Made by a program: the position numbers and the translations under genes
Part shown: piece after piece, positions 51-53,762 of the stretch
Layout: each line of letters opens with the position of its first letter
Numbering within the stretch: position 1 is the stretch's first letter
Notes under the pieces: generated by a model
What the model was told of the DNA's origin: nothing
Seen by the model: only the letters and a program-made list of their open reading frames with translations
The model's database searches: none
Source of the DNA: a virus
Direction: 5' to 3' (one strand)
DNA: 64,000 nucleotides
IMG/VR virus record: IMGVR_UViG_3300006037_000008
Location: 1-64,000 of that record

Positions 51-365
51 ATGACTTACGAATTACCTGCACTTTTGGGGTTGGGTGGAGGTGTCCTCAG
101 TTTTGAGGAGACCACAAAGGCTCGAATTGATCAAATTTTAGCTCCTGAAATTCAGGAGCTAAAATTCAATCAGCTGAGTTTTCGGCCGATTGAATTTCAC
201 TCACCCCAAAACTGGGGTGAGTGAATTTTAACCACTAGCGGTGGTGCAGCTAGAAGGAAGTCACTACAAAACTTTCGTAGTTCAAAATTAGATGATTCAA
301 TTCTGAGTCATGAGGAATATCAACAACTTACAGATGCGTTCAAATTTGAGCGCATCTATTGGTAG
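51..365 (+). pseudogene. Small ORF interrupted by an in-frame TGA (broken gene or readthrough gene)
   Basis: Reading from ATG 51, 57 codons run to TGA at 222-224, and the same frame then stays open for 46 more codons to TAG at 363-365. The downstream half (SGGAARRKSLQNF... to KFERIYW) looks protein-like, is rich in charged residues, and has no start codon or Shine-Dalgarno (SD) of its own. This suggests one protein of about 103 residues interrupted by a nonsense codon, or stop-codon readthrough. The TGA lies inside the 3' arm of a 12-bp hairpin (196-225). Two more near-perfect inverted repeats sit in the reading frame (134-166 and 332-357). No clear SD precedes the ATG. I do not recognise the family. 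Confidence 0.45.
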
Positions 366-391
366 CCAAAACCCCAAAAACCGCTTATAAT
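363..391 (+). promoter_or_regulatory. Promoter upstream of the Rha leader
   Basis: A consensus -10 box TATAAT lies at 386-391, with TAGCCA (363-368) 17 bases upstream as a -35 that matches four of six consensus bases. Transcription would start near 398, giving an RNA that runs through the structured leader into the rha gene at 530. The -35 overlaps the TAG stop of the preceding ORF. Confidence 0.5.
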
Positions 392-408
392 AGCTATATC
401 CACGGTGA

Positions 409-514
409 GTAGTGTCTAAGTGGTTGAGATGGCAAGTAAATTTTTGAAGTTTTAGCTCTGTAATCGGAGGCTGCTTGCGCCTACACTACCCGATTATAGA
501 GCTAAAACTTTTTT
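409..514 (+). promoter_or_regulatory. Structured leader (attenuator candidate) of the first rha gene
   Basis: A 21-bp stem with one G-U pair forms between 447-467 and 490-510 and is followed by six T (509-514), as in an intrinsic terminator. The last seven loop bases (483-489, ACACTAC) are perfectly complementary to 409-415 (GTAGTGT), upstream of the stem, so two crossing helices are possible (order A-B-A'-B'). A 4-bp hairpin (468-471 with 479-482) fills the rest of the loop. An ATG at 429 opens an eight-codon frame (MASKFLKF) whose stop lies inside the 5' arm of the terminator stem. The second rha gene has a leader with the same order of helices. Regulation by attenuation is an inference. 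Confidence 0.5.
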
Positions 515-529
515 ATTGAGTGAAATTTG

Positions 530-1261
530 ATGAAAAATACCCTGCAAGTGACTGAAAACGCTGTAGTTTCTATGACGAGTCTAGAAATCGTTGAATTTAT
601 CAATTCACGCCGTCCAGAGGGTTCGGCTGAGTTGCGTCATGATAACTTTATGGCGAAAGTACCCCAAGTATTGGGTGAAATAGGTGCCCTAAATTTTAAG
701 GGCACCTATTTTGACACTCAAAACAAGGAGAGACCCTGCTACCGATTCCCAAAACGAGAATCCATGTTGATGGCCATGTCTTACGACTACGCCGCCCAAG
801 CTGCAATCTACGACCGCTGGCAAGAGCTAGAAACCCAAGTCCAGCAACTAGAGTCCAAAAAACTCAAACAACTGGAGGATCGCAATTATCTGCTCATTCA
901 CGACTTATCGGACAACATCAGCCACATCGCCAGCAGTATGAACGCGATTAAGGCTGCCGAAAAGGAGGTTAAGCTGATCAAGACACGCATGGCCGATTAT
1001 ATCGACGAGCGCGTGACTGATTTGCGTGAAGTGGCCTATGACTTGCGCGAAGCTGGTGAAATCGGACTTGCTAAGGAGTTAATATCAGTGGTTAGGGCTA
1101 TGCTCAGAGACCTGAAAGGTGTCACGAACCCTAAGAATGAGGCACTTACTGCTTGGTGTTTTGTGTCCGAGTCAGGACTTGACCGCTACGCACGAGAGCG
1201 TGTAGCACTTATGGATCGCTACGCACAATTGGAACAACTGGAACAAGTTGAAAATTCCTAA
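530..1261 (+). CDS. rha: Rha family phage regulatory protein (antirepressor-like)
   Basis: The 243-residue protein has the N-terminal Rha (pRha) pattern: an MTSLEIVEFINSRR segment like the helix that starts Rha domains, then RHDNFMAKV, a hydrophobic GTYFD strand, YRFPKRESMLMAMSYDY and DRWQELE. In the family this domain acts in phage lysis-lysogeny or host-interference control and probably binds DNA. The C-terminal half (roughly residues 100-240) is helical and charged, with a likely coiled coil. ATG 530 is preferred over the TTG at 527; GAG at 518-520 is a weak SD nine bases upstream. A 12-bp inverted repeat (679-690 with 699-710) lies inside the coding sequence. The gene is convergent with the minus-strand microgenes. 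Confidence 0.75.
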   Translation: MKNTLQVTENAVVSMTSLEIVEFINSRRPEGSAELRHDNFMAKVPQVLGEIGALNFKGTYFDTQNKERPCYRFPKRESMLMAMSYDYAAQAAIYDRWQELETQVQQLESKKLKQLEDRNYLLIHDLSDNISHIASSMNAIKAAEKEVKLIKTRMADYIDERVTDLREVAYDLREAGEIGLAKELISVVRAMLRDLKGVTNPKNEALTAWCFVSESGLDRYARERVALMDRYAQLEQLEQVENS

Positions 1262-2523: not shown

Positions 2524-2693
2524 AAAACGGCTTTTTCCTACAGAATTTTGAATTTTAAAAAAAGTCCCCAAATTATAAAAATTTGCAAATATCCAGTTTG
2601 GCTTTTGTTGAAAAAGCTTTCTCTCAAAAAAGCCCTTTTAATGTGCATATATCATGTGCATTATAAACACACGACGCACGCCTAAAGCACGCG

Positions 2694-2747
2694 CCCACAC
2701 ACACGCACGCACACACGCACGCACACACGCACACACGCACGCCCACG
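2694..2747. repeat. Alternating purine-pyrimidine (CA/CG) tract
   Basis: The tract is almost entirely alternating CA and CG dinucleotides (ACGC and ACAC units) for about 50 bases. Such sequences favour Z-DNA under negative supercoiling and are prone to slippage. It lies in the roughly 330-base gene-free stretch 2466-2794, which otherwise holds the 2486-2523 hairpin, an AT-rich segment and a repeated ATGTGCAT (about 2640-2663). No gene is supported there. Confidence 0.6.
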
Positions 2748-2794
2748 CAGGGGCGCGTAAATAACACACCCACTTGGGGTGTGTCAAGGGTTTT

Positions 2795-32718: not shown

Positions 32719-34638
32719 TTAACCCTCACATGCGACACAGGCGGAATAATCTACAGAGACTGAAACCTTCTCTACTTTATCAGTGGCGGTAGTCATACCG
32801 CTGCGCAAAGCTTTTGACTTCAGATAGTAGCGAGTCTTCAGACCACGCTTCCACATCAGCAAATGAGTGTAGTTGATGTACTCTTTGCTGGCATCAGGCA
32901 TGAAGAAGACATTCAGTGATTGAGCTTGGCAAACGTAGGGCTGGGCTGCAGCTGCCAACTCAACCACCCAACGCTGGTCAATTTCAAAGGCCGTTTTACA
33001 TAGCCGTTTGATGTGGTCAGATAGGAAATCAAGATGCTGCACTGAACCATCATTCTCTAAGATCGACTTCCAGACCTTCTTCTTGTTCTTGCCCAGCTTA
33101 ATCAGCTCATTCTCTAGGAACTCATCCTTCACCAAGAAAGAGCCTGATAAGGTTTTGTGGGTATAGCAGTTCTGGTAAGTCTTCTCTCGGCTCGCTGATA
33201 CGTTGTTGCAGATGATCGCGTTGGTGGCAGTTGGAGCAATTGCAATCACATGGCTATTGCGTCGGCCAGTGCCTTTCATATCTGGTGCTTCACCTCTTTC
33301 CAGACCAAGGTCAAGACTGGCCTGCACTGCCTGATAATGAACATGCTTGCTTACCTTATCGGTCGCAATCATCGCTTCGCGTGAATCGTAGTAGATACCC
33401 TCGTTTTTGAAATAGGTATCCCAACCCATCTGGCCCAAGCCGAGTGCGCGTTCTTGGGTTGCTGAATAAACTGCCTTACGCATTGGGTGCAGGTACTTGT
33501 GTAGAATATCATCAATCACAGACTCATCGGCACGACCCCCAACGATTTCGCGCAGACGCTCTTTACCAATCTGTGTGTCGGCATTGGCTGTGCCATTTTC
33601 GATAAAATATTGAATTACATTGTCTAGGAAACGAATCATATCGTTTACGAAAGTAGGATGATCCTTCCACTCATTGTACTTGGCCATGTTGAGTGAAGAT
33701 AGGCAACAAACTGCAGTGCGATCCTTGTTGGTTGGGAGCGTAACTTCAACACAAAGGTTAGAACCATTAACCTTCAAGCCTAAGTCTTTCTGGGATTGTG
33801 GCAGCATTCGATTGCTGGCATCAACCCAATGAATCATTGGTTCACCTCCTTTGGTAGCCGCCGTATCTAAGCACATTTCCCAGAGCTTACGCGCCTTGAC
33901 TGTCTTAACCACTTTGCCAGTGTGTGGTGAAACTAGACCCCAATCTGCATTCTCAATCACCCGCTTCATAAAATCATCGGGGATATTCACACCATTGTGG
34001 ATATTGCGCGAGCGACGATTATTATCACCTGTTGGGTTTCGGATCTGGATGAACTCTTCAATCTCAGGGTGTGAAATGTCCATGTTGCACATGTCAGCAC
34101 CACGGCGATTGCTCCCCTGATTGGTGGCCAATACGAGTCGATCACTCACCCCCACAAAGGGAATTGCCCCTCCAGTCTTCTGTCCCGTGCTAGTTGGACA
34201 ATTTAGTTCACGCAATTGGCTCCAGTGAGTGCCACGTCCACCCCCATTACTGTTGAGGAAGATACCTTCAACATAGCTCTGCGCAATATCCCAACGTGAA
34301 TCCCCAACGGTGCTTAGGAAGCAAGAGATTGGAAGTGGGCCGAGTACGTTTTTGAAACAGTCAGCTTTGAAATTCTGTGCGAACACCTTTTCAAATTTTA
34401 CACGCTCAGGGGCGTTGCTCAGAACGGGGGTGGCTGGCCCAGCCCACTGTTGGGCGAAGTATTGGTACATTCGTTCAGCCATTGCCTGATCATCTGAGTA
34501 GGCAGTGGCACATCGCCAATAAAGTTCTTGTGGGCTGTGCTCATGCGCCAAATAATAACGATCTTCCAGTGTTTTTAAGCTGAAAAGTTTTAGCTCGATA
34601 CTGATCTTACTCAGTTCGAGTGGGAACGCGATACTCAT
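32719..34638 (-). CDS. nrdA: Ribonucleotide reductase class I, large (alpha) subunit
   Basis: The 639-residue enzyme reduces ribonucleotides. Active-site cysteines are present: SCFLSTVG (first redox Cys), NLCVEVTLP (radical Cys between Asn and Glu), AVCCLSSLN (second redox Cys), and the C-terminal shuttle pair CVACEG. It lacks an N-terminal ATP cone, so it may escape dATP shut-off. ATG 34638 is chosen because AGGA is eight bases upstream; an ATG nine bases earlier has its SD too close. It leads the nrdAB pair and is divergent from the lysis genes. Confidence 0.93.
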   Translation of the reverse strand: MSIAFPLELSKISIELKLFSLKTLEDRYYLAHEHSPQELYWRCATAYSDDQAMAERMYQYFAQQWAGPATPVLSNAPERVKFEKVFAQNFKADCFKNVLGPLPISCFLSTVGDSRWDIAQSYVEGIFLNSNGGGRGTHWSQLRELNCPTSTGQKTGGAIPFVGVSDRLVLATNQGSNRRGADMCNMDISHPEIEEFIQIRNPTGDNNRRSRNIHNGVNIPDDFMKRVIENADWGLVSPHTGKVVKTVKARKLWEMCLDTAATKGGEPMIHWVDASNRMLPQSQKDLGLKVNGSNLCVEVTLPTNKDRTAVCCLSSLNMAKYNEWKDHPTFVNDMIRFLDNVIQYFIENGTANADTQIGKERLREIVGGRADESVIDDILHKYLHPMRKAVYSATQERALGLGQMGWDTYFKNEGIYYDSREAMIATDKVSKHVHYQAVQASLDLGLERGEAPDMKGTGRRNSHVIAIAPTATNAIICNNVSASREKTYQNCYTHKTLSGSFLVKDEFLENELIKLGKNKKKVWKSILENDGSVQHLDFLSDHIKRLCKTAFEIDQRWVVELAAAAQPYVCQAQSLNVFFMPDASKEYINYTHLLMWKRGLKTRYYLKSKALRSGMTTATDKVEKVSVSVDYSACVACEG

Positions 34639-51703: not shown

Positions 51704-52390
51704 CTAGAATTCAGATCCAATATCAATACAGTACACGTCGAGCCATGCCTGCGCAGGCCATGACTTCACAATACCCCAACGCGGGTCTACAACTTCAATC
51801 GGCTTTAACCCGCGTTCCTTGCACCACTTTTTCAGCGGTTGCCATTTATAGGCGTTGCCAGTCAGGTTTTGCACAGCAATGATAGTTGCATGACTCTTGC
51901 ACCGGCCAATCTCAGCTTGCAACGCGCTAACCTTGCGAGACGCGGCGGACGCTGTAGCCATGGCAGTGGCTTCACGCTTGCTCCCAATTTGTGCTTTGGT
52001 GGCAATGGCATGATCCCGTTCGGCGATAGCTTGCAAGCGGCCTTGTTCGGCCTGCATTGCTATTTGCAGTATTTCAAGGGTGGTCAATTCAGCAGGTGTT
52101 TTGGTCTGTGCCGCTTCGAGTTCTTGCCAGCGGTCAACCACAGCAGCAGTGAATTCTGGCGACAGACGGGCAACAATCACTAGACTGTCGCGCTTGTCTG
52201 ACAAATACTCAGTGTAGTTTTGTCGGTTTTGAGGATGGATGTATTCATGGGGTGTCGTATTTTTTACGATACCCGCTTCGATCAGCGAGCGGACAAGCTT
52301 CAGTACGTTGTCGTGCTGCTTGCCTGTAAGCTGCGCAATTTCGCGGCTAGTCATCACCTGAGCAGACGCTGCTTTGATTAAATCACTCAT
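51704..52390 (-). CDS. rha: Rha family regulatory protein, second copy
   Basis: The 228-residue protein has the Rha domain in a clearer form: AQVMTSREIAQLTGKQHDNV LKLV (near 13-36), TTPHEYIHPQNRQNYTEYLS, and LVIVARLSPEFTAAVVDRWQELEAA. The C-terminal half has the KilA-C/antirepressor look (EATAMATASAASRKVSALQA, then WCKERGLKPIEVVDPRWGIV). The protein likely binds DNA and controls host or prophage genes. It is only distantly like the Rha protein at 530-1261, although both have similar leaders. A terminator follows. Confidence 0.8.
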   Translation of the reverse strand: MSDLIKAASAQVMTSREIAQLTGKQHDNVLKLVRSLIEAGIVKNTTPHEYIHPQNRQNYTEYLSDKRDSLVIVARLSPEFTAAVVDRWQELEAAQTKTPAELTTLEILQIAMQAEQGRLQAIAERDHAIATKAQIGSKREATAMATASAASRKVSALQAEIGRCKSHATIIAVQNLTGNAYKWQPLKKWCKERGLKPIEVVDPRWGIVKSWPAQAWLDVYCIDIGSEF

Positions 52391-52407
52391 AATTTTCACT
52401 CATAAAA

Positions 52408-52520
52408 AAGCCGTGCATTCGTTACTGTGGTGGAAGATGGGTCGAGTAGCCCAAACACAGCAAAAAACACACGGCGTTTTTCAACTCGAATTCTACTTCA
52501 TTGCACGGCTTCCACACCAC
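52408..52520 (-). promoter_or_regulatory. Structured leader (attenuator candidate) of the second rha gene
   Basis: On the minus strand GTGGTGTGGAAG (52520-52509) can pair with CTTCCACCAC (52436-52427) with a two-base bulge, and AAGCCGTGCA (52511-52502) can pair perfectly with TGCACGGCTT (52417-52408), which is followed by a T-run like a terminator. The helices cross (A-B-A'-B'), and A and B share three bases, so they compete. A nested hairpin (CTGTG/CACAG and TGGG/CCCA) lies between. A 32-codon frame from GTG 52520 to TAA 52422 covers the switch and could be a leader peptide. TATATT (near 52532-52537) with ATGTCA 16 bases upstream is a likely promoter. Confidence 0.5.
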
Positions 52521-52720
52521 GCAACAAGTAAAATATAGCACGATTCTGATGGGTGACATATGAATAAAAGTTATCGGTTAATTTTGATCTATAAATATTA
52601 TTGATTAATAGTTTTTTGCGCAGCAGGGTGTGATGGTCGAGCCGCCACACTCACCGCTAGACAAAGACCGGCCAGTCTTGTGAGTGCAGCTTCTCTCCGT
52701 TGGGGCGTGGCGGCAAACCG

Positions 52721-52951: not shown

Positions 52952-53118
52952 CCTTTACAAAAAATGATAGGGAAGAAGCCAGCCTGAGCCAGCTCCTGTT
53001 CGCGGATTTTCATTGCCTCGTAGCAGGTTGCAATGCTTTGATAAACTCTTGGTTTCTCACAACTTTGATAAGTGCCAGCCTTGGTGGTGATGCAAGCGAT
53101 AAGGATTAGAGTGTTCAT
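52948..53118 (-). CDS. Small protein with signal-like N-terminus, 56 residues
   Basis: ATG 53118 has GGAG upstream and overlaps the preceding stop (ATGA). The N-terminus MNTLILIACITTKAGTYQSC could be a signal or short membrane anchor. The rest has three more Cys and ends AGFFPIIFCKG. It may be a small periplasmic or membrane-bound protein with disulfides. The family is unknown. Confidence 0.6.
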   Translation of the reverse strand: MNTLILIACITTKAGTYQSCEKPRVYQSIATCYEAMKIREQELAQAGFFPIIFCKG

Positions 53119-53762
53119 GAAACTCTCCACGACATTAGAGCTTGAAAAACTTCAGGCTTTAACTCCGCTTGGTAATGCAAAGCAGCAAGCTTGACTTGAG
53201 CTTCCTTTGCAATAACATAGGCTTGATACGCTTTTTCTGGGCAATCAAATGAGCCTAGCTGAACCGCCTCCCCAAAAGAGTTCACTCTGGCTCTAAACTT
53301 TCCTTGCTTTTTAACAAAAGTCACACCTCTAGGCCACTGCCCTCTACGCTTGGCGTAGTCATTCAAAAGTTTATTGATTTGCTGAGGAACAAACCTACAA
53401 AAGTCTGGACTATAAAGTTTATTACCTTTTGCCAGAATATCTTTATCTAGGTGTTTGCCTTCTGGCTTACCTTGGTAGGCTACTTGAGCATTGACCCATT
53501 CAAGGAAACAAGCAAAAGAAAGCCACTCTTGGCAGCAGTCCACCTGCTTATAGGTTGGTTGCTTATTCTTCGTGACCACAGAGTAGCTTCTTTTTAGCAT
53601 GTCAGACCAGATCTCGTACTGCCAAAGAAGTTTGCCCTTTATTCTGATCTGAAAGGGAACGTCAACTCTCCCTACCCCCTGATTGGTTGGAGGGACTGAA
53701 ATCCTCTCTACTGTCTTTAAGGCATCTACCTCATTTTGCGTAAGTTTTAACTTCAAGATCAC
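53115..53762 (-). CDS. AP2-domain HNH-like (homing endonuclease-like) protein
   Basis: The 215-residue protein has EIWSDMLKRSYSVVTKNKQP TYKQ (near 50), CCQEWLSFACFLEWVNAQ, LDKDILAKGNKLYSPDFCRFVP (near 105) and an AP2-like end GVTFVKKQGKFRARVNSFGE. These features are typical of phage AP2/HNH homing-like endonucleases that insert among other genes. The His-Asn-His residues are only partly visible, so activity is uncertain. The start overlaps the helicase gene by 32 bases; AAGGAG favours TTG 53756 over GTG 53762. Confidence 0.65.
   Translation of the reverse strand: MILKLKLTQNEVDALKTVERISVPPTNQGVGRVDVPFQIRIKGKLLWQYEIWSDMLKRSYSVVTKNKQPTYKQVDCCQEWLSFACFLEWVNAQVAYQGKPEGKHLDKDILAKGNKLYSPDFCRFVPQQINKLLNDYAKRRGQWPRGVTFVKKQGKFRARVNSFGEAVQLGSFDCPEKAYQAYVIAKEAQVKLAALHYQAELKPEVFQALMSWRVS

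Follow-up and report, generated by a model that had tools for sequence, protein, structure and literature searches.

Antirepressor genes help set the timing of prophage exit from lysogeny, and to our knowledge few RNA controls of such genes are known (c4, sar, and IsrK). In the antisense-controlled attenuators of the pT181 repC type, complementary segments follow the order A-B-A'-B', with B-B' forming an intrinsic terminator; A overlaps the terminator arm there, and an antisense RNA drives the switch. The IsrK-orf45-anrP locus of Gifsy-1 comprises a promoter, a short RNA, a Rho-independent terminator, read-through to an antirepressor-like gene, and alternative structures, and the switch demonstrated for it is translational, working via orf45 and the short IsrK in trans (PMC4825925). 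The c4 RNA of P1 and P7 (RF01695) displays short, phage-variable complementary segments in loops within the leader of an antirepressor gene and acts on the translation of ant (PMC12197685). P4 CI, with seqA/seqC, is a phage leader RNA in which internal complementarity controls premature termination; according to the summary in PMC4825925, CI arises by processing of a transcript that is not translated, and it has two pairing targets.

The logic of the leader described here, but not its sequence, resembles that of IsrK-AnrP, P4 CI, and c4. The leader lies in IMG/VR virus record IMGVR_UViG_3300006037_000008, whose positions 1 to 64,000 (64,000 nucleotides) are called the window below, and precedes rha2, the product of which is a presumed lysis/lysogeny regulator. 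Judged by sequence alone, the IsrK-type layout (promoter, RNA, intrinsic terminator, antirepressor-like gene) appears to be present, and as with c4, the element stands upstream of an antirepressor-like gene in a phage. Unlike in IsrK, no conserved leader orf was seen in the present class, and no A-A'/C-C' plan is described for IsrK (PMC4825925); unlike c4, the leader is separated from its gene by a terminator; and while it shares with the pT181 repC type the A-B-A'-B' order and the B-B' terminator, its A' abuts B', and the promoter scan of the rha2 leader showed no antisense promoter. P4 CI is likened to it by description, not by sequence. The parts of the rha2 leader are as follows.

52391-52545 (-): rha2 leader, about 120 nt between the promoter-like site and the ATG at 52390
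52554-52559 (-): -35-like hexamer ATGTCA, spacer 16, a consensus match only
52532-52537 (-): -10 hexamer TATATT with an upstream TG; TG-C-TATATT is shared with L003
52501-52524 (-): 5' hairpin D, TTGCGTGG-TGTGGAAG-CCGTGCAA, with A as its loop; compensating changes in L003
52509-52515 (-): A, GTGGAAG, complementary to 52430-52436; A-A' covariation in 64 relatives
52484-52489 (-): C, TCGAGT, 8 nt 5' of B, complementary to C'; joint test in seven leaders
52456-52475 (-): B, GCCGTGTGTTTTTTGCTGTG, terminator 5' arm; compensating changes in L003
52439-52452 (-): inner hairpin GGG-CTACTCGA-CCC, with C' ACTCGA (52442-52447) within its loop
52430-52436 (-): A', CTTCCAC, directly abutting B'; found by the plan scan
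52410-52429 (-): B', CACAGTAACGAATGCACGGC, terminator 3' arm, pairing with B
52404-52409 (-): TTTTTT run, as read in the sequence
52396-52401 (-): SD-like GAGTGA, with the ATG 5 nt downstream; rha1 is similar
51704-52390 (-): rha2, a 228-aa Rha/antirepressor-like protein (Pfam Phage_pRha, PHROG 4936, PHROG 63)

The order A-B-A'-B'-T-run given in the preliminary description was borne out, at 52404-52515 (-) before rha2 and at 409-514 (+) before a second gene, rha1, as was the rha2 gene span of 51704-52390 with its ATG at 52390. The assignment of B had to be revised: the segment beside A taken for it, GCCGTGCA, fits better as the 3' arm of hairpin D, and a second copy downstream, GCCGTGTGTTTTTTGCTGTG, is the better terminator arm. 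The latter (52475-52456) pairs with CACAGTAACGAATGCACGGC (52429-52410) over 20 bp, with a single mismatch. The two-helix plan had also overlooked a third pair of complementary segments, C-C'; both A-A' and C-C' cross B-B'. Upstream of rha2 stands an HNH endonuclease-like gene with an AP2 domain (53115-53762, minus strand; PHROG 953, E 6e-62), of which L190, one of the phage loci collected for comparison, holds a relative of 27.6% identity.

The rha1 leader has the same order of parts (A, C, B, inner hairpin, A', B', T-run, GAGTGA, ATG) in unrelated letters, as listed below.

363-391 (+): promoter-like TAGCCA-17-TATAAT, preceding the rha1 leader
400-423 (+): hairpin D, CCAC...GTGG, with A GTAGTGT (409-415) in its loop
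432-438 (+): C, GCAAGTA, with C' TGCTTGC at 472-478
446-511 (+): terminator, with B at 446-467 (GAAGTTTTAGCTCTGTAATCGG), inner hairpin AGGC-TGCTTGC-GCCT at 468-482, A' ACACTAC at 483-489, and B' at 490-511
509-514 (+): T-run
530-1261 (+): rha1, a 243-aa Rha-like protein with ATG at 530 (PHROG 63; Pfam Phage_pRha slightly under the cut-off)

Both leaders thus have D with A in its loop, A-A' crossing B-B', A' abutting B', and the T-run, and each has a promoter-like site upstream. The segments from T-run to ATG were similar, as claimed, not only in rha2 (TTTTTTATGAGTGAAAATTATG) and rha1 (TTTTTTATTGAGTGAAATTTGATG) but also in two loci discussed below, L003 (TTTTTTATTGGTGAAAATATG) and L221 (TTTTTTATGGATGCAAAATATG), and the Rha proteins were indeed distant, the two products showing 23% identity over 160 aa. 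Upstream of rha1, at 124-233 (+), two near-perfect inverted repeats stand in tandem, TTTTAGCTCCTGAAATTCAGGAGCTAAAA and ATTTCACTCACCCCAAAACTGGGGTGAGTGAAT.

We then determined how far such structures could arise by chance. The terminator score was 17 to 18 for rha2 and 22 for rha1, and none above 14 was obtained in 60 Markov-3 versions of the window; throughout the whole 67,569-base record, these two leaders were the only scan sites with a terminator score of at least 12. Folding of each leader beat 200 of 200 dinucleotide shuffles (z of -3.8 and -4.7). A strict scan for the plan over the 2.7 Mb of loci that had been fetched returned 94 unique sites, and 0 in the reversed sequences, a result that measures specificity and not frequency, since most of those loci had been fetched for carrying the motif; the 94 sites are therefore not a background rate. 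For C-C', a joint test over seven leaders gave a total of 128 versus 89 for mismatched partners, and none of 2,000 derangements or 1,000 shuffles was as good; p for individual leaders was only 0.005 to 0.14, and in L052 the best C by scan was not the one picked by eye.

Homologous Rha genes were found in L003 (56% identity in the best segment) and L221 (53%), and both of their leaders carry the plan with compensating letters: in L003, B is GCCATGCGGCTTTGTGTGTG/CACACACAAGACTGCATGGC and C is TCGAACT/AGTTCGA; in L221, A is GGTGAAAG/CTTTCACC, C is TCACGACA/TGTCGTGA, and B is different. Across the four Rha leaders (rha2, rha1, L003, and L221), compensatory changes occur in the A, B, and C helices alike. 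The 32-codon frame said to span the switch is present in rha2, but it is not supported as a leader peptide, because a 1-nt indel shifts the frame in L003 and no counterpart was seen in L221. A survey upstream of Rha genes, as the preliminary description had proposed, covered 115 distinct Rha-type loci, of which only L003, L221, and L019 (the last a rha1 locus identical to that of the window, on another contig) had a strong plan; the remainder of the set had no strong site, and the element is therefore not a general Rha feature. Among Rha relatives in bacterial genomes the plan was not seen, the genes standing mostly within operons or after simple hairpins. The locus L018 has a simple hairpin only and was not counted as a member. 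Antirepressor-type genes of Xenorhabdus/Photorhabdus (L142, L152, L153, and L177) have a leader of a different type, in which a GC hairpin, preceded by GCAATTATTTTTGCATCGG-like sequence, and an A/T-rich run stand just before the RBS.

The element is widespread in aquatic phages. The pattern GTGTGGAAGCC-N50..80-TCTTCCACC was found in 40 IMG/VR contigs, most of which share the plan by eye, and a second pattern, built from the inner part of those contigs with A left free, gave at least 120 IMG/VR matches. A T-run followed the 3' arm in 91 of the 92 unique instances read, and A matched A' in nearly all of them. A loose pattern, GTGGAAGCC..CTTCCAC, was abandoned for the longer one, as the matches listed for it were mostly unrelated stretches. 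Across 300 genomes from a single bacterial order the pattern had 3 matches, and these carry no signal, because the reversed pattern matched at a similar rate. Against the phages collection, the leader DNA had no match and the aquatic element had one (MW202545).

In an alignment of 64 sequences, 94.6% of the cells in the named structure were paired, with changes on both sides at 15 pairs. Covariation was 0.265 versus 0.122 for shuffled alignments (0 of 500) and 0.034 to 0.100 for slid ones, and a single pair of the A-A' pseudoknot (21/105) was GC in 21 sequences, AU in 20, CG in 13, and UA in 8. RNAalifold, which is blind to the pseudoknot, independently recovered B-B', two inner hairpins, and the closing pairs of D. 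A covariance model built from the aquatic members alone, without the pseudoknot, had the rha2 leader as its top match in 276 kb (21.2 bits, E 0.006); the L003 leader scored 16.9 bits, and L197, L052, and L058 were matched at E values of 1.3e-5 to 6.8e-5. The rha1 and L221 leaders were not matched by this model, and their membership is by plan only. The loci L197, L052, and L058 have a C-C' candidate like that of the Rha leaders, and in L052 and L058 the sequence 3' of the element resembles, by eye, that after the aquatic set; the three thus bridge both subtypes. In the subtype with C, C ends 5 to 10 nt before B (7 of 7 leaders), and in that without it, A ends 7 to 17 nt before B (7 to 12 nt in many aquatic members), while the A-to-B distance in the Rha leaders is 30 to 37 nt.

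At gathering score, Rfam 15 had no family over the element, only the adjacent Betaproteobacteria-1 RNA and tRNAs; at E values up to 10 the matches were chance ones, weak Trp_leader and miRNA matches lying elsewhere or being due to chance. C4 RNA was rejected as the family, its covariance model (RF01695) having no match at an E value of ≤10 in six phage records (this phage and five related ones). No description of the element was found in a search of the openly licensed literature. A CsrA-like GGA loop was discarded, as variants such as GTGGCAAC are without GGA, and so was a T-box-like UGGNA, as A instead pairs with 7 to 9 nt of its own RNA. The proposal of an RNA class that keeps its fold and spacing while its sequence varies is supported by the compensatory changes, the covariation among 64 relatives, and the lack of an Rfam 15 match. 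The proposed linkage to Rha was only partly right, the strong plan being present at 3 of 115 Rha-type loci and most instances preceding noncoding regions or other operons. These data also bear on the idea that each leader is an ordinary terminator of the upstream operon with chance complementarity. Intergenic terminators are common and the genes upstream of rha2 are on the same strand, but the covariation, the scan control, the promoter-like sites between the upstream genes and the leader, and the recurrence of one plan at two rha genes distant in the genome all speak against it, and we regard it as highly improbable.

A noncoding region follows most instances of the class, and a late operon follows others. 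Aquatic members have a largely noncoding stretch of a few hundred bases after the element (86 of these stretches join in one similarity cluster), and varied genes lie beyond. In L184, L187, L195, L204 to L207, L213, L215, L072, and others, a long conserved noncoding region (..CCAGCCGTACTCCGCACGATAGCAAGAGCCTGCATGGGCTGCG..) without an Rfam match lies just 3' of the T-run. Betaproteobacteria-1 RNA (RF02932), an RNA distinct from the element, follows it in L191 (1476-1593), L300 (4110-4227), and L335 (488-604, minus strand), starting no more than about 30 nt past the T-run in the first two and adjoining the element in the third; it is absent from the window. The element may be an unrecognized leader of this RNA. 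In L197 the element is directly followed by a 257-aa gene and then by holin, endolysin-like, and small and large terminase genes; in L190 a noncoding stretch and then head morphogenesis genes follow; and in a Manatee Spring phage the element stands after six tRNA genes. Its positions (at Rha, at the head of the L197 lysis/packaging operon, and at the L190 head operon) suit a role in transcription control. Such a role could be that of HK022 put, with the leader RNA binding polymerase and making it resistant to terminators over long, partly noncoding operons, and the 5'-terminal position and the association with long noncoding regions and late operons would agree with this. Every element, however, ends in its own terminator-like U-run, and put, as far as PMC9378689 describes it and compared by description rather than sequence, acts against pausing and termination by direct contact with polymerase; we hold this reading to be improbable.

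From its sequence, the element looks like an RNA-based on/off switch, and we tentatively regard it, at close to even confidence, as a phage transcription attenuator in which A-A' and C-C' oppose closure of the terminator. The transcript would begin some 7 nt ahead of hairpin D, from the extended -10 promoter. During synthesis of the leader, A (the loop of D) and C would find their partners A' and C', both transcribed ahead of B'. Short linkers join A and C to the terminator at its 5' foot, so that these pairings would sterically hinder closing of the B-B' foot beside the U-run and favor read-through into rha. Where A-A'/C-C' is absent or undone, B-B' and the U-run would stop transcription some 120 nt after its start, before the SD and ATG, and so, by this proposal, no antirepressor-like protein would be made. 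Candidate triggers include a factor acting on RNA polymerase or the RNA, pausing, and another copy of the leader RNA. The sequences show the helices with their compensatory changes, the abutment of A' and B', the T-run ahead of SD and ATG, and the presence of the element in many phages; the promoter, termination itself, the state that allows read-through, and the trigger are inferred.

Folding of successive prefixes was compared with this proposal. Toward the end of synthesis A-A' was the preferred pairing in four leaders: rha2 (0.93 at 12 nt past A'), L221 (1.0), L195 (0.98 at A'), and L308. In rha1 it was roughly balanced, and L003 and L306 showed it weakly or not at all. Once B' was complete the pairing was gone, and the final fold was the terminator. 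The full terminator fold of rha2 has an energy of -43.7 versus -31.3 kcal/mol for the A-A' fold, and because the complete terminator is far more stable, antitermination would require kinetic control or a stabilizing factor.

The competition between helices envisaged in the preliminary description is thus plausible in a modified form: A' and B' abut without overlap, and the competition would be topological, through the short A-to-B and C-to-B linkers. By hand geometry, these linkers are short relative to a stem of about 20 bp, so that A-A'/C-C' and the closed foot would be mutually exclusive and pairing would favor read-through; in the Rha leaders, with A 30 to 37 nt from B, the steric argument is that of C-C' alone. 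The same abutment, exact and with zero overlap, would also suit coaxial stacking of A-A'/C-C' atop a closed B-B', strengthening or protecting the terminator to give a stable terminated RNA, with rha read only when a phage-modified polymerase ignores terminators. The A-to-B linker of the Rha leaders could span the stem; many aquatic linkers (7 to 12 nt), however, look too short for one of 20 bp, and C-to-B is only 5 to 10 nt in the C-bearing subtype, which leaves such bracing unlikely.

The covariation is equally compatible with pairing in trans. As for P4 CI, c4, or IsrK, the functional species could be the terminated leader of about 120 nt itself: its exposed A/C or A'/C' would pair with their counterparts in another leader, nascent or finished, and set termination or translation of rha; the outcome would be a copy- or immunity-like control in which A and C diversify as a specificity code. 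Published antirepressor leaders provide precedents (IsrK-orf45-anrP, PMC4825925; c4-ant, PMC12197685), A is exposed in the loop of D, and the A/A' and C/C' segments of this phage's two Rha leaders are unlike each other and also vary from phage to phage, as orthogonal codes would. Pairing in cis is nevertheless simpler, since A-A' and C-C' all sit inside one transcript, and when complements to the leaders were sought elsewhere in the phage genome, the best were 12 to 14 nt, near chance, with no second copy of the segments standing out. Action in trans seems to us unlikely. A broader view, which we also consider doubtful, takes the element for a modular RNA switch of phages that is so far undescribed. 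A terminator with crossing A-A' and C-C' would serve in aquatic phages as a portable 5' leader, placed before long structured RNAs, late operons, and antirepressors alike, and its freely diversified A/C codes would act in cis and also, as an RNA-based immunity, in trans.

If the attenuator reading is right, this pseudoknotted class, with more than a hundred contigs of aquatic phages, no Rfam entry, and a place before Betaproteobacteria-1 RNA, would offer a testable regulatory role for many unexplained phage noncoding regions. Two further stretches of the window were recorded. A 12- to 14-nt copy of the rha1 terminator arm (GAGCTAAAACTTTT), near chance, lies at 34583-34596, early in a ribonucleotide reductase large-subunit-like gene, and a noncoding stretch of about 60 nt at 2688-2750 (+) carries short CACG/CACACG repeats.
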